Of a stretch of DNA of 23,356 nt, positions 3,788-23,356 are shown one piece after another. The notes beneath the pieces were generated by a model, which saw only the letters and a list, made by a program, of their open reading frames with translations, had not been told where the DNA came from and did not search any database. Every line of letters begins with the position of its first letter. Position 1 is the stretch's first letter. The DNA lies in the IMG/VR virus record IMGVR_UViG_3300006916_000404, positions 1 to 23,356 of that record; one strand, 5' to 3'. The DNA comes from a virus. A program made the translations under genes and the position numbers.

Positions 3788-6700
3788 ATGGCTTTTGTAC
3801 TAAAAGATCGTGTAAAAGAAGAAACTACAACTACAGGCACAGGTGCTATCAGTTTAGGTGGCACTTCTGCTACGTTTGATCAGTTTCAATCTTACATGTC
3901 AAATGGAGATACTACTTATTATACTATCTCTCATACTGTAGCAGGAACAGATGAATGGGAAGTGGGTGTAGGAACTTGGAACACAGGTAACACCTTAACT
4001 CGTACAACTGTTCTAGCTGGATCTAATGGTACATCAGCCGTTAACTTTAGTGCAGGAACTAAAGATGTCTTTATGACATATCCTGCAGATAAAGCTGTAT
4101 TCAAAGATGCTAGTGGTAACTTAGCAGATGTTTCTCTTTCTAACTTTGATACAGATGATTTATCTGAAGGTTCTACTAATCAATACTATACAGATGCCAG
4201 AGTAAACTCTCATCTATCTGGCGGTACAGGTGTTACATACTCAGATGGTGCTATTTCTATAGGACAAGCTGTAGGTACATCTGACAATGTCACCTTCAAC
4301 AATATAACATCTGGAGGAATAGTAACACTTAATGCTGATCCTAGTGCTGCTTTACAGGCGGCTACTAAACAGTACGTAGACACTATTGCATCTGCAGGTC
4401 TACACTATCATACTCCAGTACGTGCTGAACATCCTAGTAACCTAAATGCTACTTACAACAATGGTTCATCAGGTGTAGGGGCTACGCTTACTAATGCAGG
4501 AACAAACGCAGCATTAGTTATAGACAGCGTAAACATGGTATTAAATGATCGTGTTCTTGTCGCTAACCAAACAGACCAAACACAAAATGGTGTATATACT
4601 GTAACGACAGTAGGTGATGGCTCTACTGCGTGGGTACTAACTCGTTCTACAGACACAGATACTTCAGCACCGTCTGATCCTGATGCCTTTGGTAAGGGTG
4701 ATGCTTTCTTCATCAAAGAAGGTTCTACTAATGCAGGTCACTTAGATGTTTTAAGTACAGCAGGTACAATCGTATTTGGTACTACTAATATTGTTTTTGC
4801 AGAGGTTGCAGAAACTACTGTGTATCAGGCAGGTGACAGTTTAACACTTACTGGTACAACATTTGATACAGTACAAGATATTCGTACTACAGCCTCCCCA
4901 ACATTTGCAGGTGTTACCGCACCACTTACAGGTAACGTCACAGGTAACCTAACTGGCAATGTCACAGGTAATGTCACAGGTGACCTGACAGGTGATGTAA
5001 CAGGTAACGCAGACACAGCAACAGCTTTAGCTACAGCAAGAGATATACAACTATCAGGAGATGTAACAGGTACAGTTTCCTTTGATGGTTCAGGTAATGT
5101 CAATATGACAACTGCTGTAGTAGATGATTCCCATGCTCACATAATCTCTAATGTGGATGGGCTACAGACTGCACTTGACGGCAAGGTTGCTACGTCTTTT
5201 ACTGTTACATCAGGTAATGGTTTAACCGGGGGAGGTGATCTGACTGCTAATCGCACCCTTGCTGTCGGTGCAGGTACAGGTGTTACAGTAAATGCTGATG
5301 ACGTTGCTATTGGACAAGATGTCGCAACTACAGCAAGTGTTACGTTTGGTGGTTTGAGTGTTACATCAACAGCTAACCCAACAATAAGCATTGAAGATAC
5401 TGATAACGGTTTTGCCGCTTCTACCATAAAAGTAGAAAATGGTGGTCGTGATTTAGACATTACAGTTCCGCAAGATACTATTTTTACCCAAGGTTCTACT
5501 GAAGCCATGCGTATTTTGAGTGATGGCAATGTGGGGATTGGGGTAAGTTCTGTATCTGGCGTTAAATTGGATGTCTTGGCGACAGCTTCAGATAACTTAG
5601 TTGCTAGATTTGAAAACAATCACGCCACTGGTTCTTATGGTATTTCTGTAAAAGCTGGGGACGACAGCGGAAACTACGCTGCTGACTTTGCAAACAAGTC
5701 TGGCACATCTCTTATGCGCATCCTTGGGGATGGTAATATTGGGATTAACAACACAAGCGCAAATACAAAGTTAGACATTATCGGTTCGTCAACTAATGGT
5801 TCGGGTGTTGTTGATACTTTGAGGATTAGAAACACTGGCACAACTCTTAATGATGGGCCAAGACTTCAGTTCACATCGGGAACGTCTACATCTGGTGCAG
5901 CCATTGGCTCACAGGGTAAGGCACTTAATAGTGCAGAGTTATTGTTTTATGCTGGCGGGAACTCAGAACGTCTACGTATAGGATCGGCAGGACAGATTGG
6001 CTTGGGTGGTGCTAACTATGGTACATCTGGTCAGGTATTAACTTCTAATGGTTCTGGCTCGGCACCAACATGGCAGAATGCAGGTGGTGGATCTAACGCT
6101 GACACACTCGATGGATTAGACAGCACAGCGTTTTTAAGAAATAACGTAAGCTCAACAATGACAAGTGGTCAGCATAGTTATCAAAGCGCAGACGCTATTG
6201 AAAGTACAAGCGGTGATCAAGCAACCTTAGAAGTTTACCAAGATACCGCAGGGGCAGATGCTTTTATGCAATTTCATGTTGCAGGTGATTATGCTTTTTA
6301 TTTTGGTCTTGATGGGTCAACAAATAATCTTGCTATTGGTGGATGGTCACTAGGGGGAAATAAATATAAGGTTTGGAACCAATCAAATGACGGTTCGGGT
6401 TCTGGTTTAGATGCTGATTTACTAGACGGTGTTCATGGCAGTTCGTTTCTCAGAAGTGATGCTGATGACACTGTTAACGCAGGAGTGACTTATAGTTGGT
6501 CTGCTACAGACACAGAAGGTTTGCGTTTTACTAACAGTTCATACAACGCTTCTTTGTATATTGGTGGTTGGACTACTGCTAACAGTAATAACATTTCAAG
6601 AATAAGGAACTCTTCTGGCAACCTCCACATGGATAGTGCCGCCAATGGTAACATGTATCTTAACTGGTACACTTCTGGCACTGTCTACATGGGTTCTGCT

Positions 6701-15149: not shown

Positions 15150-17450
15150 ATGGCTAAGAGATTTGCAGGGTTTAAGCCTGAGACATTACAGAATAAAATA
15201 TTACCAGCGTTGGGCTACAATGGACCTACTGATGAAAAGTCTATCAATCAGTTTCTAGCAGCTAACCCTGCTGCTGCAGCTAAGATGGGTAGATATACTA
15301 TGGCAGCTAGGCAGATGGTAGAAGGTAAACGTATTGGTGCATTTTTGGGATTGTTTGGCGGTCCTAAAATAGGCACACCTGAATATGCAGCAAAAACAAA
15401 AGAAACCCACGCTAGGGCAGTACAGAAACAGAAAGACAAAAAGACACTGCAAACAGGTACACTGAGAGAAAGATTAAATGTACCTGGAGTTGATCTTCAA
15501 ACAGCAATTAGAGGATTACCTGATGATAGGGGCAGTAAGAAAGCACCAGCTAATACACCAGCTACTACATCTAAAGGACTAGCTGACCTTGGAAATCTAA
15601 TAACAACTAACACGCCTAAAATTGATGATGGATTTCGTATCCTACCTCCCAATTCAATGCATACTAATGATATGTTAAATTATGGTGATTATAAAGGTAT
15701 AAATTCTACTGAGAAAGGTTTCTTAGAAAAGTACGGAAAGCCTTTTTCAGAAATGACTGAAGCTGAACAGCAAGCAGTGTTAAATGAAATAAACACACCT
15801 AGAAAGCCTCGTCCTTTGGATGACCGAAGAAATAGCCCTAACGCACAAGCTGCCCTGTTATCTGGTCAGGAGATGACAAGACAGATACAGGCAGATCCTA
15901 CAGCCCCAGTTACAAGGGCTGGTGTCGTAGCTGACGAGGGTGGAGCTAACCGTTTAATGGGAGAAGGTATCGGTCAAGCAGGAGATGCAACACAAGCAAC
16001 TGTTACGACTGCAGGACAACCTGCATTAGTTGCAGCACCTACGCCAATGGATGCAGCAACTATGGATGCTACACTAACACAAGATGCTATAGAAGCTGCA
16101 ACAGCAGACATGCAAGCTGCACAAGGACAAGTAAGTGACCAAGCTCAAATGGAAGCTGCACAGATGGACCCACAGACTGCAGCATCACTAGGCTTAGACG
16201 CTGCACAGTTAGCTGAAGCACAGAGAGTAGAAGCAGTAACACCATTACAGGTAACACCAGAACAGCTTATAGATGGTACTACTGTTGATCGGTCACAAGT
16301 AGAAGAAGAACTAGCCAAGACACAAGCAGCTACTGTAAGTGGTGAGCTAGGCAGATTGATGGAAGACTTTGAAGGTGGTGATACACCTGCTTGGGCTGCA
16401 GGGGCTATGAGAGCAGCTAACGCAGCAATGGCAGCACGTGGATTGTCTGCATCAAGTATGGCAGGTATGGCTATAACTCAAGCAGCTATGGAATCAGCAT
16501 TGCCCATCGCACAAATGGATGCGTCTAACAAGCAAGCTATGGCACTAGAGAAAGCCAAACAACGTGCAAACTTTTTAGGCATGGAGTTTGACCAAGAGTT
16601 CCAAACTAAAGTAAAGAATGCTGCACGTATATCTGAGATAGCTAACATCAACTTTAGTGCTGAACAACAAGTAGCAATAGAGAATGCAAGACTTGCTCAA
16701 AGTGTAGACCTAGCTAACCTATCTAATCAACAAGCAAAGGTATTGGCTGATGCTGCTACCATGTCACAGATTGATCTAGCTAACCTAGACAACAGACAAA
16801 GAGCAGCCGTACAAAACGCTCAGTCTTTCTTACAGATGGATATGGCTAATCTTAGCAATGAACAGCAAACTCTTATGTTCAAGCATCAAGCAAATGTTAG
16901 TGCTATATTTAGTGATCAGGGAGCAGACAATGCTGCTAAACAATTCAATGCTACTTCAGAAAATCAAACTAATCAGTTCTTTGCAAACCTAGCAACACAA
17001 GTAGCACAGTTTAATGCAGAACAAACTAATGCAATAAACAGATTTAATGCAGGTGAAACAAATGCTATTTCACAATTCAACGCAGCACAGTCTAACCTAC
17101 GAGATCAGTTTAATGCACAGAATCACTTAGTTGTTGCACAAGCTAACGCCAGATGGTTACAGTCAATTACTACAGCAGCAAATGCCGCAAACAATCAAGC
17201 TAATAGAGATGCAGCTATGGTGGCTAACAACTTAACAAGAGCAGCCTATGATGCCATTCTACAAAAAGAAAGAGATTTAATGGGCTGGGCTTGGAAGTCT
17301 GGAGAAAGTCAAAAACAAAGAGACAACAATATAGCTGTACAAAAAATAAAAGAAGGGGCAGATGATAGTAGTATTTTTGAAACAGGCTTGTCTGCTATTG
17401 CTGCTGAACTTACAGACTCTTTCTTGGAAAACATTTGGGATATCTTCTAG
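15150..17450 (+). CDS. Long helical internal-virion-type protein with hendecad repeats
   Basis: 766 residues, no known enzymatic motif. The N-terminus (about 1-100) is basic and helical; about 100-250 is a low-complexity linker; about 265-400 is an Ala/Gln/Thr-rich helical region with almost no aromatic residues. Residues about 412-450 carry AMRAANAAMAARGLSASSMAGM and AITQAAMESALPIAQMD, a pattern that I recall from structural proteins of marine phages. From 497 to 674 the protein is a chain of 22- and 11-residue repeats described separately. The C-terminus (about 675-766) is helical, ending with a short acidic hydrophobic segment (LENIWDIF). Such Ala/Gln-rich helical proteins encoded between fibres and lysozyme fit internal or ejected virion proteins. 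The ATG follows the previous stop closely with a weak GGGA site. Confidence 0.7.
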   Translation: MAKRFAGFKPETLQNKILPALGYNGPTDEKSINQFLAANPAAAAKMGRYTMAARQMVEGKRIGAFLGLFGGPKIGTPEYAAKTKETHARAVQKQKDKKTLQTGTLRERLNVPGVDLQTAIRGLPDDRGSKKAPANTPATTSKGLADLGNLITTNTPKIDDGFRILPPNSMHTNDMLNYGDYKGINSTEKGFLEKYGKPFSEMTEAEQQAVLNEINTPRKPRPLDDRRNSPNAQAALLSGQEMTRQIQADPTAPVTRAGVVADEGGANRLMGEGIGQAGDATQATVTTAGQPALVAAPTPMDAATMDATLTQDAIEAATADMQAAQGQVSDQAQMEAAQMDPQTAASLGLDAAQLAEAQRVEAVTPLQVTPEQLIDGTTVDRSQVEEELAKTQAATVSGELGRLMEDFEGGDTPAWAAGAMRAANAAMAARGLSASSMAGMAITQAAMESALPIAQMDASNKQAMALEKAKQRANFLGMEFDQEFQTKVKNAARISEIANINFSAEQQVAIENARLAQSVDLANLSNQQAKVLADAATMSQIDLANLDNRQRAAVQNAQSFLQMDMANLSNEQQTLMFKHQANVSAIFSDQGADNAAKQFNATSENQTNQFFANLATQVAQFNAEQTNAINRFNAGETNAISQFNAAQSNLRDQFNAQNHLVVAQANARWLQSITTAANAANNQANRDAAMVANNLTRAAYDAILQKERDLMGWAWKSGESQKQRDNNIAVQKIKEGADDSSIFETGLSAIAAELTDSFLENIWDIF
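16638..17171 (+). repeat. 22-residue then 11-residue coiled-coil repeats
   Basis: Within the protein starting at 15150, residues 497-584 hold four units of 22 residues (cores IANINFSAEQQ, VDLANLSNQQA, IDLANLDNRQR, MDMANLSNEQQ). Residues 598-674 then hold seven units of 11 residues (QFNATSENQTN, QFFANLATQVA, QFNAEQTNAIN, RFNAGETNAIS, QFNAAQSNLRD, QFNAQNHLVVA, QANARWLQSIT). The 22-residue unit is two hendecads, so one period runs through both blocks, interrupted by 13 residues at 585-597. Confidence 0.85.
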
Positions 17451-17460
17451 GGCAATCAAC

Positions 17461-19062
17461 ATGACATACAATCCAAATCATTTATCAAACGCTAACGCAC
17501 AGGCTGCTGCCTCCATGATGTCTGCAGGAATAGGCAGCGTTGGTGGTAAACCTATCACCTCTACTGCAGCACAAATTCAAAGTGACTTTATGAAAGAGTT
17601 CCGCAAGAGAGATGATGATAAACCAAGTGGATTAGGTGCAGCTACAACAAAGGTTGAGCCTGAAGAGGATGACAGAAACCTAGACCAAAAGATATATGAC
17701 TTCTTTGTAGGTGCTGGTGCTGATATGGAACCTAAAGAAGAAGAGCCTATGTATATGATGGACTTCTATGGTGGCCCTATGTTTGTTGTGCCTGAACCTG
17801 CTCCTGTTGAACGACAGGTATTATCTTCTCCTTTTGATGAATACAATGTAGAGACATATAACTTTGGTGGCTACTCCGACACCAGAGACACTTCTCCTTC
17901 TATTGGTTCAACAGTAGACCCTGACATGCAAGACCCTCGTAGAGGCTTAATGGCTGCTCCTACAATGTCACAACCTTCTACACCAGAAGAACTAACAGAT
18001 GTACCTAGAGCATTAGCTATGTCTGCTGCTGTACCTACAAAAACATATACAATAAAATCTGGAGATACACTATCAGAGATTGCCAGAGATAATAATACTA
18101 CTGTCAAAGCTCTAATGAGTTTAAATACTCAGATAGAAAAAGCAGATGAAATAGATGCTGGTGCTACTATACAGCTACCTTTATCAGACACACAAGCTGC
18201 TTTGCGTAGAGGTTTAGGCAGTGAGAAAGACATGAGTGGCGTACAAGTCGCAAGCACTGATCCTGAGTTTAAATTTTACCAGTCTGGTGTACCTTTAGAT
18301 CAACGTATATTTGAACCAGAGGACACAACTGGTTTTGGTGGTATGGGGCCAGACCCAAGCACAGGTCAGGGTATAATGACACCTCGTTCTTCTGTACCAA
18401 CAATAGAGAATAGTTTATCTGATGATGACTTGGGTATACCAGATACAGACAACTATATGGGTTACTTACCTTCAACTCCTGCACAAAAGGTTTTGAATAA
18501 GATTGCAGTGGGAGAAGGAGCAGTAGCTGATAAACTACAAAGACAGGCCAAACATGGTATAGGTACTACTGAATATGATATGGTATATAATTATGGAGAT
18601 ACATTAGCACCTGATAAACCTATAACACAAATGACAATACAAGAAGTTTTTGATTATCAAAAGAAACTTATAAATGCAACAAAAGGAAAAGTTCCGGGAA
18701 CAACAAAAGGAACTAGTGCAGTAGGTAAGTATCAGTTTGTTAAGACTTCACTGTTTGGGCCAAATGGAACACCAGAAAAACCACAAAAAAATTATTGGGC
18801 AGATAAACTTAAACTTACTCCAGATATGAAGTTTACTCCTGCGTTACAAGAAAAGATTGCTAGGCTTGCATTAAAAGAAACAGGCTATGATAACTACGTT
18901 AAAGGTAAAAAGTCACAAGACGCTACAATAAACAGAATAGCAGATATATGGGCTTCTGTAGAAGGGAATACATATGGTCAAGGAACAGGTACAACTAAAG
19001 CTGAATTAGCTGCTATATTAGATACAGTACAACCCGACTATATGCAATTAGGAACACCATAA
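17461..19062 (+). CDS. LysM and lysozyme-like peptidoglycan hydrolase (virion-associated)
   Basis: Start set at 17461 (MTYNPNHLSN), eleven bases after the preceding stop; the longer in-frame start at 17362 would sit inside the previous gene and adds an unlikely hydrophobic leader. 533 residues. After an acidic, Pro-rich linker there is a LysM domain at about 195-242 (KTYTIKSGDTLSEIARDNNT, then VKALMSLN and GATIQLPL), which binds GlcNAc in peptidoglycan. A second linker leads to a lysozyme-like domain at about 341-530: IAVGEGA with candidate catalytic Glu352, EYDMVYNYGD, TSAVGKYQF (418-426), LQEKIARLALKETGY, and NRIADIWASVEG. The E...GxYQ layout is that of phage muramidases/transglycosylases. 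Position in the virion module suggests a wall-opening enzyme for DNA entry; an endolysin role is also possible because a three-helix membrane protein follows. The start of the next gene overlaps its stop. Confidence 0.8.
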   Translation: MTYNPNHLSNANAQAAASMMSAGIGSVGGKPITSTAAQIQSDFMKEFRKRDDDKPSGLGAATTKVEPEEDDRNLDQKIYDFFVGAGADMEPKEEEPMYMMDFYGGPMFVVPEPAPVERQVLSSPFDEYNVETYNFGGYSDTRDTSPSIGSTVDPDMQDPRRGLMAAPTMSQPSTPEELTDVPRALAMSAAVPTKTYTIKSGDTLSEIARDNNTTVKALMSLNTQIEKADEIDAGATIQLPLSDTQAALRRGLGSEKDMSGVQVASTDPEFKFYQSGVPLDQRIFEPEDTTGFGGMGPDPSTGQGIMTPRSSVPTIENSLSDDDLGIPDTDNYMGYLPSTPAQKVLNKIAVGEGAVADKLQRQAKHGIGTTEYDMVYNYGDTLAPDKPITQMTIQEVFDYQKKLINATKGKVPGTTKGTSAVGKYQFVKTSLFGPNGTPEKPQKNYWADKLKLTPDMKFTPALQEKIARLALKETGYDNYVKGKKSQDATINRIADIWASVEGNTYGQGTGTTKAELAAILDTVQPDYMQLGTP

Positions 19063-19517: not shown

Positions 19518-20045
19518 ATGGCAACATCACTATTCGATAGCCCAATTCCCGGTCAGTCTTTAACAGATGAACCGAAGAATAACCCTTGGGAAAACCCAGC
19601 AGAAATGTCAGACATGACAGAGATTACTAAGTTCTATATTAACAAGTTAGCTAATCAAGATGTTATAGATGATCTAGCTGTTATGATGCAGACAGGCATA
19701 CCACTGAAACCTATTGTTGAAACTATAACAACAACTGGTGTAATGAGAGGTATGCATACAGTAGATGCTGGAATGCTTGTTGGTCCTGTAATACATCAGT
19801 TCTTAAAGCAAGCTGTAGAGTCTCAAGGTATCAGTGTAAAAGATGATAAGATAGACTATAAGAAAAAAGCTGAAGATAGGGAAATGACTAGGTTTAAGAT
19901 GCTTGCTACTAAGTACCTTAGTGAAGAGCCTGATGAATCAGATCCCGGAAAAGAATTACTAGGTGAACTAGTTGAGGCTGGAGAGCCAGAGGAAGAGGTA
20001 ACACCAGAAGAAAAGCCACAAGGCTTAATGATGAAAGGTTTATGA
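19518..20045 (+). CDS. Uncharacterised virion-type protein (175 aa) with GLM tail
   Basis: N-terminus ATSLFDSPIPGQSLTDEPKN then NPWENPAEM, a proline-rich opening of a kind that I associate with structural proteins of marine myo- and podoviruses. Residues about 30-125 are helical (ITKFYINKLANQDVIDDLAV, MMQTGIPLKPIVETITTTGV, GPVIHQFLKQAVESQGI). The C-terminal 45 residues are acidic and end PQGLMMKGL. No membrane segment or enzymatic motif. The good ribosome site AGGA (19508-19511) precedes the start at 19518. It is probably a minor virion or internal protein that acts with the following two genes; function unknown. Confidence 0.68.
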   Translation: MATSLFDSPIPGQSLTDEPKNNPWENPAEMSDMTEITKFYINKLANQDVIDDLAVMMQTGIPLKPIVETITTTGVMRGMHTVDAGMLVGPVIHQFLKQAVESQGISVKDDKIDYKKKAEDREMTRFKMLATKYLSEEPDESDPGKELLGELVEAGEPEEEVTPEEKPQGLMMKGL

Positions 20046-20046
20046 T

Positions 20047-21540
20047 ATGAGCTTTAATTGGAAAGCGTTTGCTGGTAACTTCCTGCAGGAAACTGCTATG
20101 AACATACGAGAACGTAAAGAGGAAGCTAAAGCTTACGAAGAAGAGCAGAAACAACTAGCTGAACGTAACCTCCAATTAGTGCGTCAACGTGAAGCCGTAG
20201 CAAGAAATGCAGCACGTGTTGGTAAACAGGCTATGGAGTTAGGTGCTTCAAAAGAGTTAGTCATAAATGCTATGTCTTCTGGTGTGTCTGGTGTAACAGA
20301 TCTTTATGCCAATCTACAGAACCTACATTCACAGTTAGGATATCGTCCTGGACAAGAGTTAACAGAAGATGAAATAAGAATGGGCTTGAGTGCTCCTACT
20401 GCTGCTAACATTGATCCTAGTCTAGTAGCTGCTGACTTGACAGATCTTGCTATGCAGACATACGGTGTTGTACCTAAAGGTAAGTTATCAGATCCAAAAG
20501 AAGCCAGCACTATGAAAACTCTATTTGGCTTTGATGCTAAAGATAGAGTACGAAGAGAGCTAGCAGATGAAAAGTACTATGGTAACCTAAGTATAGGTGA
20601 CATAAACTACATAGCACAACAATCAGAATATAATGCTCTTGTAGGTGATGCTGTACAAAACTTTGCTGAGTTGCCTGTATATAACTCAGAAGCTAAGTTA
20701 AACTTTTCTACTAATCTAAACAAAGTTATGGATGATGCTATTACTGGTCAGGCATTTAAGAGCAGACTAAATGCTTTAGTAGATCCTGCAGATAAGCAAA
20801 CAGCTATGTTGATAGAGAGACAGAAAGCTGCTGGTAACTTTATAAGAAACTATGCAGGTACATATGAATACACAGGCTTCTTTGATGATCCAGCTACATT
20901 AGATTTAATTAAACAAACTTTTGAAATACCGGGCCAAGAAGGAGCAGGACAAAAGTGGTTAGATACTCTATTGGTAGAATATGACAGAGAGCCAGAGACT
21001 CCTATAAGTGAAGATGATACTTCTTTGAAAATAAAAGAACCAGTACCTCCTAAGAATATAGACCTGAAGAAAGACCCTGTAGACCCTGTAGAAACAGATG
21101 ATCCTTTCCCACCTGCTCCAGATCTAGATGAAGAAGGTAGAGCTATAATGGATGCATCTGTGTCAGGGGAACTAAGAAAAGGTTACACTGCACAGTACAC
21201 ACGTGAACAGTGGAACAAGATGTCTCGTAAGCAAAGAGAAGAAAGAGACTTACCTGTGTCTCCAATGGGTGTGATAGGCTTCCAGTTTAAAGAAGACGTA
21301 GATAAAGTACTGGAAAAATCTTTAAGTAACCTAAACGTAAAACGTAATACAAGAGAAGGTAAAGAGTATAAAGTTATTATAAAGAACTTAGGTACTTTTA
21401 CTGCAACAAAAGAGCAGCTTGATCAGATGCTTGACTCAGCGTTTATGGGAGAAAGGCCAGCCATAATACTAGAAGAGTATGGAGAGGAAGAACCTAGAGA
21501 AAGAAAACTAACTACACGTATAATCAAAAGGTTTAAATAA
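20047..21540 (+). CDS. Uncharacterised internal-virion-type protein (497 aa)
   Basis: N-terminal coiled coil at about 15-75 (MNIRERKEEAKAYEEEQKQL, NLQLVRQREAVARNAARVGK), then helical parts (ASKELVINAMSSGVSGVTDL, DLTDLAMQTYGVVPKG) and a mixed region with FAELPVYNSEAKLNFSTNLN and FIRNYAGTYEYTGFFDDPATL. A Pro/Asp/Glu-rich linker (about 310-365) separates a basic C-terminal part (YTAQYTREQWNKMSRKQREE, VIGFQFKEDVDKVLEKSL, KVIIKNLGTFTATKEQLDQM). No signal peptide or membrane helix. The composition (long helices plus charged linkers) and gene order suggest an ejected or internal virion protein. GAAAGG lies at 20033-20038, and the start is two bases after the previous stop. No family is recognised. 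Confidence 0.7.
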   Translation: MSFNWKAFAGNFLQETAMNIRERKEEAKAYEEEQKQLAERNLQLVRQREAVARNAARVGKQAMELGASKELVINAMSSGVSGVTDLYANLQNLHSQLGYRPGQELTEDEIRMGLSAPTAANIDPSLVAADLTDLAMQTYGVVPKGKLSDPKEASTMKTLFGFDAKDRVRRELADEKYYGNLSIGDINYIAQQSEYNALVGDAVQNFAELPVYNSEAKLNFSTNLNKVMDDAITGQAFKSRLNALVDPADKQTAMLIERQKAAGNFIRNYAGTYEYTGFFDDPATLDLIKQTFEIPGQEGAGQKWLDTLLVEYDREPETPISEDDTSLKIKEPVPPKNIDLKKDPVDPVETDDPFPPAPDLDEEGRAIMDASVSGELRKGYTAQYTREQWNKMSRKQREERDLPVSPMGVIGFQFKEDVDKVLEKSLSNLNVKRNTREGKEYKVIIKNLGTFTATKEQLDQMLDSAFMGERPAIILEEYGEEEPRERKLTTRIIKRFK

Positions 21541-23356
21541 TGTCCAAAGTACATGAAGAGTTTTACAGAAGTTTTAACCAAAGGACTTCTGGTTTAACTA
21601 GTGACGATACATCTAGTGTTTATGATACTCCAGAGCCTTTGTTTTCTGGTGATAGTCTTAGTAAAGATGAACTAAAAAAGCAGCAGTACCTACAGCCTAT
21701 ACGAGATTATATGGTAAAACGTAAAGGTGTAGATTACGCAGATAGAAATGCAGATGAAGTTGTTGATGACTTTGTTCAGCATATGAGATACTTTAACTCA
21801 AACACTTTATCTACTGCAACCGAAGCTAGATTTGTAAACAAAGCAGATCAGGACACAAAAGAAAAAGCACGAAGAGCATATCAGATATATGACAACTTAG
21901 GCAATGTCTTTGTTAATGATGGTGTGTTTGGTGCTGTTGATGGTGTAAAAGACTACGTGTTTGCTGCAGCTAAAGATCCTACTAACTACATAGGATTACT
22001 TACTGGTGGTATTGCACGTGCAGGTGCTGCAGGGGTAGCCCTGACAAGTAAAAAAACTGTCCAAGAAACTGTACGTAGAGCAGCACTAGAAGCGGCACAG
22101 AGTGGTGCAGGTAAACAAGCAGCAAGAGAAGCTGGTATTGAGGCAGGTAAGATAGCTGCAAAGAGAGCAGTAGCTAGGGGAGCTACCAGTAAAGCAGCAG
22201 ACAAGGCAGCAGAAGAAGTAGCTAAACGTGTATCAAAAGAAAAACGAAGAGCATTAGCTAAGAAAGCAGCACAGTCAGAACAAGATAAACTATTTGATGC
22301 AGCTTCATATAAAGCCCTAAAACAAACTATTGCAGCAGACTCTGTAGCTGCTGTGGCTCAAGACATCATGGCTCAGACAACTCTACTAAGAGCAGGAGCA
22401 CAGGAGAACTACAGCTATTTACAGACAGGCTTCTCATCTTTGCTAGGTGGTGTAGCAGGGGGAGCACAGCTAGTCTTTGGTAAAGCTAAAGGTGCATCAG
22501 GTCTAGCAGAAGATGTAGATGCAAAGCTTGAGGCTGTTACTAATAGAATTATAGATGGTGCAGCACCACTGCTAAACAAAGAAGAAAGCAAGAAAGCAGC
22601 AGAGGTTATTGAAGAAGCTGCTGATGAATGGAATAAAAAGGTAGAACGTGGGGGTGCATTCTCTTCACAGACTATGCCAGCAGACTTAGTTCATGACATA
22701 ATGTTTGGAACGAACTATAAGAAGAATAAAGAAATAGGTGGCATAGCAAAGATATTCAAAGACAGTGGTAAGAAGTTTGACAGAAAGAAAACTGTCTCTG
22801 ATGTTATGACTAATGTAGCACGTAACCTAAGTGAAGTAGATCTGATATCTGTAAATGCTAAGTTAAAAGGTTCTGGCTTGGAGATAGGTGAACTAGCTGC
22901 AAACAAAGGACAGCTAGGAGACATGCTTGCTAAGAAGATTAGTGATGCAGGTTCTACTTTGAATGTTATGTCTCAGATGCGTAGAATGTTAGACACATCT
23001 ATCGTAGCTGCAGAGGACTCTATACAGGCAACACTGAAGAGTGTCGAAGCAAAAGAAGCTGTAGAGCAAGAACTTAAAAGAGCAGAAGGACTAAGGTATG
23101 GTCAGTCTGTATGGAAACGTATGCTTGTTTCTTCTCCAGCTACTACAGCCGTAAACGTGTTTGGCTTTGGTCAGTTCTATATAGGACAATCTCTAGCTGA
23201 TATATTTAACTCAACCACCCTTTACGCAAAAGGTTTAGGTCAGATGTATATCAATCCTACTGAGGCCACAAGAACGTTTCAACAGGCACGTGTACTAAAG
23301 AATATCTTTGGTCAGAAGATGCGTAACTTGCTTGACCCATACACAACTCATGACCA
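21540..23356 (+). CDS. Large internal-virion protein, truncated by window end
   Basis: Open for 605 codons from an ATG that overlaps the preceding stop (TAATG), with no stop before the window ends, so the true protein is longer. The opening is SKVHEEFYRSFNQRTSGL. Residues about 110-145 read KEKARRAYQIYDNLGNVFV. A hydrophobic Gly/Ala segment at about 142-165 (KDPTNYIGLLTGGIARAGAA) is followed by a long Ala/Lys/Arg helix with GKQAAREAGIEAGKIAAKRA and ARGATSKAADKAAEEVAKRV. Later come VAAVAQDIMAQTTLLRAG and, near the end, WKRMLVSSPATTAVNVFGFG then QFYIGQSLADIFNS. That late segment is a pattern that I recall from very large structural proteins of marine phages. A role as internal virion protein of the DNA ejection apparatus (T7 gp15/gp16-like in function) is inferred from size, composition and place. 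Confidence 0.72.
   Translation, partial: MSKVHEEFYRSFNQRTSGLTSDDTSSVYDTPEPLFSGDSLSKDELKKQQYLQPIRDYMVKRKGVDYADRNADEVVDDFVQHMRYFNSNTLSTATEARFVNKADQDTKEKARRAYQIYDNLGNVFVNDGVFGAVDGVKDYVFAAAKDPTNYIGLLTGGIARAGAAGVALTSKKTVQETVRRAALEAAQSGAGKQAAREAGIEAGKIAAKRAVARGATSKAADKAAEEVAKRVSKEKRRALAKKAAQSEQDKLFDAASYKALKQTIAADSVAAVAQDIMAQTTLLRAGAQENYSYLQTGFSSLLGGVAGGAQLVFGKAKGASGLAEDVDAKLEAVTNRIIDGAAPLLNKEESKKAAEVIEEAADEWNKKVERGGAFSSQTMPADLVHDIMFGTNYKKNKEIGGIAKIFKDSGKKFDRKKTVSDVMTNVARNLSEVDLISVNAKLKGSGLEIGELAANKGQLGDMLAKKISDAGSTLNVMSQMRRMLDTSIVAAEDSIQATLKSVEAKEAVEQELKRAEGLRYGQSVWKRMLVSSPATTAVNVFGFGQFYIGQSLADIFNSTTLYAKGLGQMYINPTEATRTFQQARVLKNIFGQKMRNLLDPYTTHD

Follow-up and report, generated by a model that had tools for sequence, protein, structure and literature searches.

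The locus studied here raises the question of what a long array of 22- and 11-residue repeats does in a protein of a short-tailed phage. The window, a 23,356-nucleotide stretch of viral DNA (positions 1 to 23,356 of IMG/VR record IMGVR_UViG_3300006916_000404), is part of an HMO-2011-type podovirus genome and encodes, at 15150..17450 on the + strand, a protein of 766 residues, denoted here the repeat protein. An initial annotation, made from the sequence, had proposed that one 11-residue period, that of a right-handed coiled coil, runs through both kinds of repeat, and that a long bundle of such helices would suit a protein that forms a tube or crosses the cell envelope during DNA ejection.

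The repeat protein and its family

Homologues of the repeat protein were found in 26 phage records and in at least 592 viral-contig stretches. The contig IMGVR_UViG_3300025759_000152 is near-identical to the window and 100% identical over the repeat protein; among named phages, Roseobacter phage CRP-207 has the closest repeat protein (60.5% identical). HMO-2011 gp25, annotated as hypothetical, is a true homologue (42% identical, corresponding gene place), and a significant sequence match, the flanking motifs WA..LPIA and N.W and the conserved gene order place the window protein in the gp25-like family. Repeats in HMO-2011 gp25 and its counterparts are not mentioned in the accessible parts of PMC6918029 and PMC9038755. 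The named relatives that we looked at annotate the protein as hypothetical, with the single exception of a homologue of Podoviridae ctYwJ313 (locus L090, 4399-6990) labelled huntingtin; its array length is 334 and its N-terminal part is Pro/Ala-rich, and the label is probably an annotation artefact that stems from richness in Gln and Pro.

All features described below lie on the + strand. The protein begins with an Ala/Pro/Thr/Gln-rich region (residues 1-400; 15150..16349) of highly variable length among relatives; 182-822 residues precede the array in named phages, and the size of the N-terminal part is freer than that of the array. A conserved helical segment (residues 415-455; 16392..16514; WAAGAMRAANAAMAARGLSASSMAGMAITQAAMESALPIAQ), in which P, W/A, G and PIA are invariant or nearly so in the homologue alignment and WA is separated from LPIA by 34-36 residues in 28 clusters, ends in the upstream anchor LPIAQ (residues 451-455). 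Right after this anchor starts the array in 11-residue register (residues ~456-664; 16515..17141), which leads into the downstream anchor QANARW (residues 664-669; 17139..17156) and a conserved helical C-terminal part (residues 670-766; 17157..17447) without a transmembrane-like stretch. In the tails of 334 homologues, no 19-mer exceeds a Kyte-Doolittle mean of 1.6; crossing of a membrane by a transmembrane helix of the protein's own C-terminal tail is thus not borne out.

An S74-type (endosialidase chaperone) tail ends 6 of 339 homologues, with a Pfam match in 2 of 21. The six are L088 and L094 (CRP-3 and CRP-738) and L349-L352, in which the tail has been swapped onto an otherwise similar protein. 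A Pfam search found no S74 C-terminal domain in the window protein.

Two repeat blocks in a single register

Autocorrelation of residues 497-674 (16638-17171) yielded z values of 8.4 at lag 22 and 7.2 at lag 11, and the observed maximum was reached by 0 of 1000 shuffles, confirming that the repeats are real; residues 1-400 and 400-496 gave no comparable repeat signal. The 22-residue block (residues 497-594; 16638..16931) contains the four units originally described, whose cores F502, L524, L546 and L568 are spaced by 22 residues. In the 11-residue block (residues 595-664; 16932..17141), Phe occurs at exact 11-residue steps (F599, F610, F621, F632, F643 and F654); the last of the seven QFNA-type units first counted reads QANA, with A665 in place of Phe. 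The repeats at 497-674 are part of a longer array that runs, as delimited above, from just past LPIAQ to QANARW.

The 13 residues that had been taken as a gap between the blocks reflect an offset of the hydrophobic positions, from Leu to Phe, and not a break in the register. Asn recurs at one phase modulo 11 throughout (N501, N512, N523, N545, N556, N567, N600, N622, N633, N644 and N655), and the distance from N523 to N600 is 77 residues, or 7 x 11, so that the Asn register is unbroken across both blocks. As one straight helix, the window array would be ~31 nm long.

Array length changes in whole units of 11 residues

We defined array length as the distance between the anchors LPIA (451) upstream and (Q/S)(A/S)N..W (664) downstream. 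The anchors were picked by pattern, with a possible bias to some forms, and 68 loci without a scorable pair were left out. The anchor distance was 4 modulo 11 in 85 of 85 homologues of the first test set, in 157 of 158 of a larger set, where the misfit was due to a wrong anchor, and in 338 of the 339 homologues of the final set. Fifteen lengths were found on this grid: 136, 147, 158, 169, 180, 213, 224, 235, 279, 301, 312, 334, 422, 444 and 532. When homologues were clustered at <60% identity in the flanks, 27 of 28 clusters lay on the 11-residue grid. The off-grid exception, L178 (length 313), carries an additional residue past the last Phe, at the array exit.

Other parts of the protein served as controls. 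The length before the array falls in all classes modulo 11, and the tail length varies freely, unlike the array length. Elsewhere in the protein most indels are small and do not fit the grid, those of 1-4 residues being common. Net off-grid change of the array is scarce even at ~30-40% identity, from which we infer selection for phase; judging from these alignments, off-grid changes must be removed by selection.

Helical period and faces

Averaged over the 28 clusters, the hydrophobic period was 3.655-3.667 in the 11-residue block (mean power 4.4, null maximum 1.85) and 3.667 in the 22-residue block (mean power 2.27, null maximum 1.77), and the power at a period of 3.5 was low (0.79 and 0.36, respectively). 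A hydrophobic period near 3.667 was thus found together with a register in 11s, as in a hendecad (11/3) helix. The proposal of one 11-residue period through both blocks is upheld, at 3.66-3.67 residues per turn in 28 divergent clusters and with the register kept in all but one homologue. An 11/3 helix is well supported by these sequence data, and in the folded protein it would probably be continuous. Fourier analysis of the whole region in the window sequence alone gave a peak at 3.71 instead of 3.667, since the hydrophobic stripes face different ways in the two blocks and cancel each other; treating each block separately, with averages taken over clusters, removed the discrepancy.

With phases counted from the downstream anchor, Asn occupies phase 2 at a frequency of ~0.7 in both blocks (28 clusters). 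The 22-residue block has large hydrophobic residues at phase 0, alternating Leu/Ala at phase 3 and Gln at phases 7 and 8; the 11-residue block has Phe at phase 1 (0.81), I/V/M at phase 9 and L/Q/N at phase 5. Phe therefore does hold a fixed place in the 11-residue units, in 81% of cases, as had been noticed in the window. A single aromatic stripe along the whole rod had to be abandoned: at 98.2 degrees per residue the stripes of the two blocks are ~160 degrees apart, and the stripe switches at the junction to almost the other side of the helix. Accordingly, phase 0 in the window is I/L/V/M/F up to F587 and Q/R afterwards, and phase 1 turns to F. In one half of the 22-residue unit, phases 6 and 9 are hydrophobic as well and point to the opposite face; such a two-faced half-unit would be in keeping with a helix flanked by a neighbour on either side, as in a barrel.

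The composition of the array favours a helix. Among the 28 cluster representatives it contains 0 Pro in 6,868 residues, 0.0% Trp plus Cys and 30% Asn plus Gln. It is also low in charge, with 15 Lys plus Arg and 56 Asn plus Gln in 208 residues.

Structure prediction

The AlphaFold2 monomer model of residues 381-766, built from 44 sequences, is helical nearly throughout, at a confidence (pLDDT 57.9, pTM 0.26) too low to inform on packing, for or against an oligomer. Neither confident globular packing of the single chain nor a beta-rich fibre domain was seen in this model. Comparison of the same low-confidence model with the PDB by VIA-align returned generic helical matches only (best Z 6.3).

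Gene neighbourhood

Among the genes upstream of the repeat gene are those of the major capsid protein (PHROG match at E 1.1e-54) and of an adaptor of the SU10 type (PF24175, E 2.8e-18), along with a gene in the nozzle place and tail-fibre genes. A 1225-aa tail-fibre-like ORF contains a short tandem array of its own (12 and 36 bp; window 4928-5009), which encodes TGN-type repeats. Five genes follow downstream: one of LysM/lysozyme-like type, three that encode proteins of 148, 175 and 497 residues, in this order, and a large one that runs off the window end. The first of these (17461..19062) encodes a LysM domain (Pfam E 2.7e-11) and a lysozyme-like C-terminal part (PHROG endolysin, E 2.4e-10); its ORF as listed opens at 17362, overlapping the end of the repeat gene, and the ATG at 17461, past the repeat-gene stop, is the likelier start. 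The conserved 175-aa gene (19518..20045) has no Pfam match and no significant PHROG name. Of the 222 loci with at least 3 kb of sequence past the repeat gene, 220 have a homologue of it there, and the two genes are therefore probably functionally linked.

The 497-aa protein of the same cassette (20047..21540) gave a mostly helical AlphaFold2 model, confident in parts (pLDDT 78.7); a search of this model for a gp15-like fold returned no significant Foldseek match, which does not exclude a relationship. The large protein (21540..23354) stands in the place of HMO-2011 gp22 (1128 aa) and shows a profile match to its HMO-2011 and HTVC033P counterparts. Pelagibacter phage HTVC033P (L095, 3163-5277) carries two 2OG-Fe(II) oxygenase genes and a putative ferrochelatase gene between its tail and repeat genes.

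The repeat gene lies between the tail/fibre genes and the lysozyme-like and large-protein genes, a place that ejection proteins occupy in podoviruses. RCA phages of the HMO-2011 type are described as short-tailed, and an internal virion protein D is named among their genes (PMC6918029); in phage SU10, the ejection proteins gp20-24, numbered right after the needle gp18, leave the head on DNA release (PMC9509320). Gene place, lysozyme-like neighbour, short tails, internal virion protein D and the SU10 example together make an ejection-cassette protein the best reading of the repeat gene. Our literature search found no virion mass spectrometry for HMO-2011-type phages, and none in the MQM1 paper.

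Comparison with known ejection proteins

At the sensitivity used, no relationship to known ejection proteins was detectable from sequence. Profile-profile comparison gave no match to T7 gp14 (internal virion protein B; hhalign P 0.085, probability 0.7%) or to P22 gp7 (P 0.19 with four sequences, 0.83 with one), and no significant match to P22 gp20 or phiX174 H (P 0.21 for the latter); the best patch against T7 gp14, RGLSASSM aligned with SMLEGSSM, is not significant. An hmmsearch of PDB sequences with both alignments retrieved nothing relevant. The PHROG names DNA ejection protein and virion structural protein obtained for CRP-738 and CRP-3 came via their S74 tails only and were gone without the tail.

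Once ejected, T7 gp14 assembles into a hexameric channel of helices (PMC8954989, PMC11784390). The repeat protein resembles the T7 gp14/P22 gp7 class in genome place and helical nature, but is far larger, and its tail lacks a transmembrane stretch. The pilot protein H of phiX174 forms a decameric helical tube with hendecads, whose lumen is lined by N/Q/R at 18 of 23 positions (PMC7354561). Both proteins are N/Q-rich and have hendecads followed by a change, of register in H and of hydrophobic face in the array, and the H hendecad QKEIAEMQNET is similar to the unit SVDLANLSNQQ of the repeat protein in the placing of its hydrophobic residues. In H, however, heptads follow after three hendecads, whereas the repeat protein keeps the 11-residue register throughout.

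Proposed role and alternatives

The reading that we favour, as a substantial possibility that falls somewhat short of probable, is that the C-terminal half of the repeat protein forms one 11/3 helix whose chains are bundled or barrelled in the DNA-delivery apparatus of short-tailed phages. The C-terminal half would be a single, nearly unbroken alpha helix of the hendecad kind, and identical chains would probably lie side by side in a slightly right-handed bundle or barrel. Array units would be gained and lost only in whole 11-residue steps, as a step of any other size would rotate all that lies downstream onto another face. With an Asn in each unit and its many Gln, the helix would have a face that is polar but uncharged and that might line a lumen or a groove facing the DNA, much like the N/Q/R lumen of the phiX174 H tube. 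As the hydrophobic stripe changes side at the block junction, the rod probably has different contact partners before and after it. By analogy, the oligomer, its lumen, its presence in the virion and a role in ejection would follow; we regard an oligomeric tube that acts in DNA ejection as plausible on the basis of gene order, the lysozyme-like neighbour, composition and these analogies. The longest array (532 residues) would measure 80 nm as a single helix, which exceeds any periplasm, so the longest rod must fold back or serve otherwise.

Besides the phiX174 H tube, the closest published parallel by description comes from the tape-measure proteins of long-tailed phages, which have a variable number of 11-residue repeats with fixed Phe/Trp (PMC3271669, PMC5099701). 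In the tape measure of TP901-1, removal of one repeat and half of the next abolished visible plaques, alanines in place of an entire unit changed little, and the authors concluded that periodicity outweighs the side chains of any single unit (PMC5099701). With these proteins the repeat protein shares the 11-residue unit, an aromatic residue at a fixed place, a unit number that varies widely and a phage structural role; it differs in the 22-residue block that precedes its 11-residue block, and in that Asn, not the aromatic residue, marks both blocks. A ruler-like function, in which a small chaperone (perhaps the 175-aa partner, given its nearly constant downstream place) binds the Phe marks and an internal core or conduit takes its length from the array, nevertheless seems unlikely to us. 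The phages are short-tailed. The published pattern of seven F/W at 11-residue spacing was found in none of the 339 homologues, window included; runs reach six at most, as they do in the window, and in many clusters just 2-4 aromatics follow one another at this spacing. Array length is also not linked to the host: arrays of both 158 and 312 residues occur in Pelagibacter phages, which likewise weakens the idea of an envelope ruler set by the host.

Still less likely is an external trimeric coiled-coil fibre or needle, in which the rod would be a tail appendage that is not ejected. The repeat gene comes after the tail-fibre genes, and S74 domains such as those ending six homologues are typical of trimeric fibres. 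These tails are rare in the family, however, the repeat gene stays beside the 175-aa gene and the genes of large proteins, and the predicted model is devoid of a beta-rich fibre domain. We consider it quite improbable that the array is an amphipathic helix on a membrane surface: apolipoproteins, synucleins and perilipins likewise use 11- and 22-residue units, and a long proline-free helix would fit, but the array is low in charge, its hydrophobic stripes are narrow and change face, and some half-units are hydrophobic on both faces. Very doubtful, too, is a by-product of tandem duplication without structural constraint, since duplication of degenerate units naturally yields multiples of 11 and accounts for the steps, but not for the near absence, as net array changes, of the small off-grid indels that are common elsewhere.

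If the favoured bundle or barrel is correct, the repeat protein may represent a new class of podovirus DNA-delivery protein, a rather unlikely but attractive prospect: a register-locked 11/3 rod or tube of ~20-80 nm, adjustable in whole-unit steps, with a ladder of Asn unbroken through both blocks and hydrophobic stripes on opposite faces. Such a class would occur in one of the most abundant groups of marine phages. Helical phage proteins built from 11-residue units are already known; this one belongs to short-tailed phages and has a two-block structure.

Taken together, array lengths that change, with hardly an exception, in steps of exactly 11 residues suggest a rigid rod or tube made of a repeating unit, perhaps for DNA delivery. 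If the array is such a register-locked rod or tube, these phages would offer a natural system in which the length of a conduit or core is changed by whole units. Podovirus ejection proteins, tape measures and the phiX174 pilot tube would then be separate uses of one 11-residue helical geometry.
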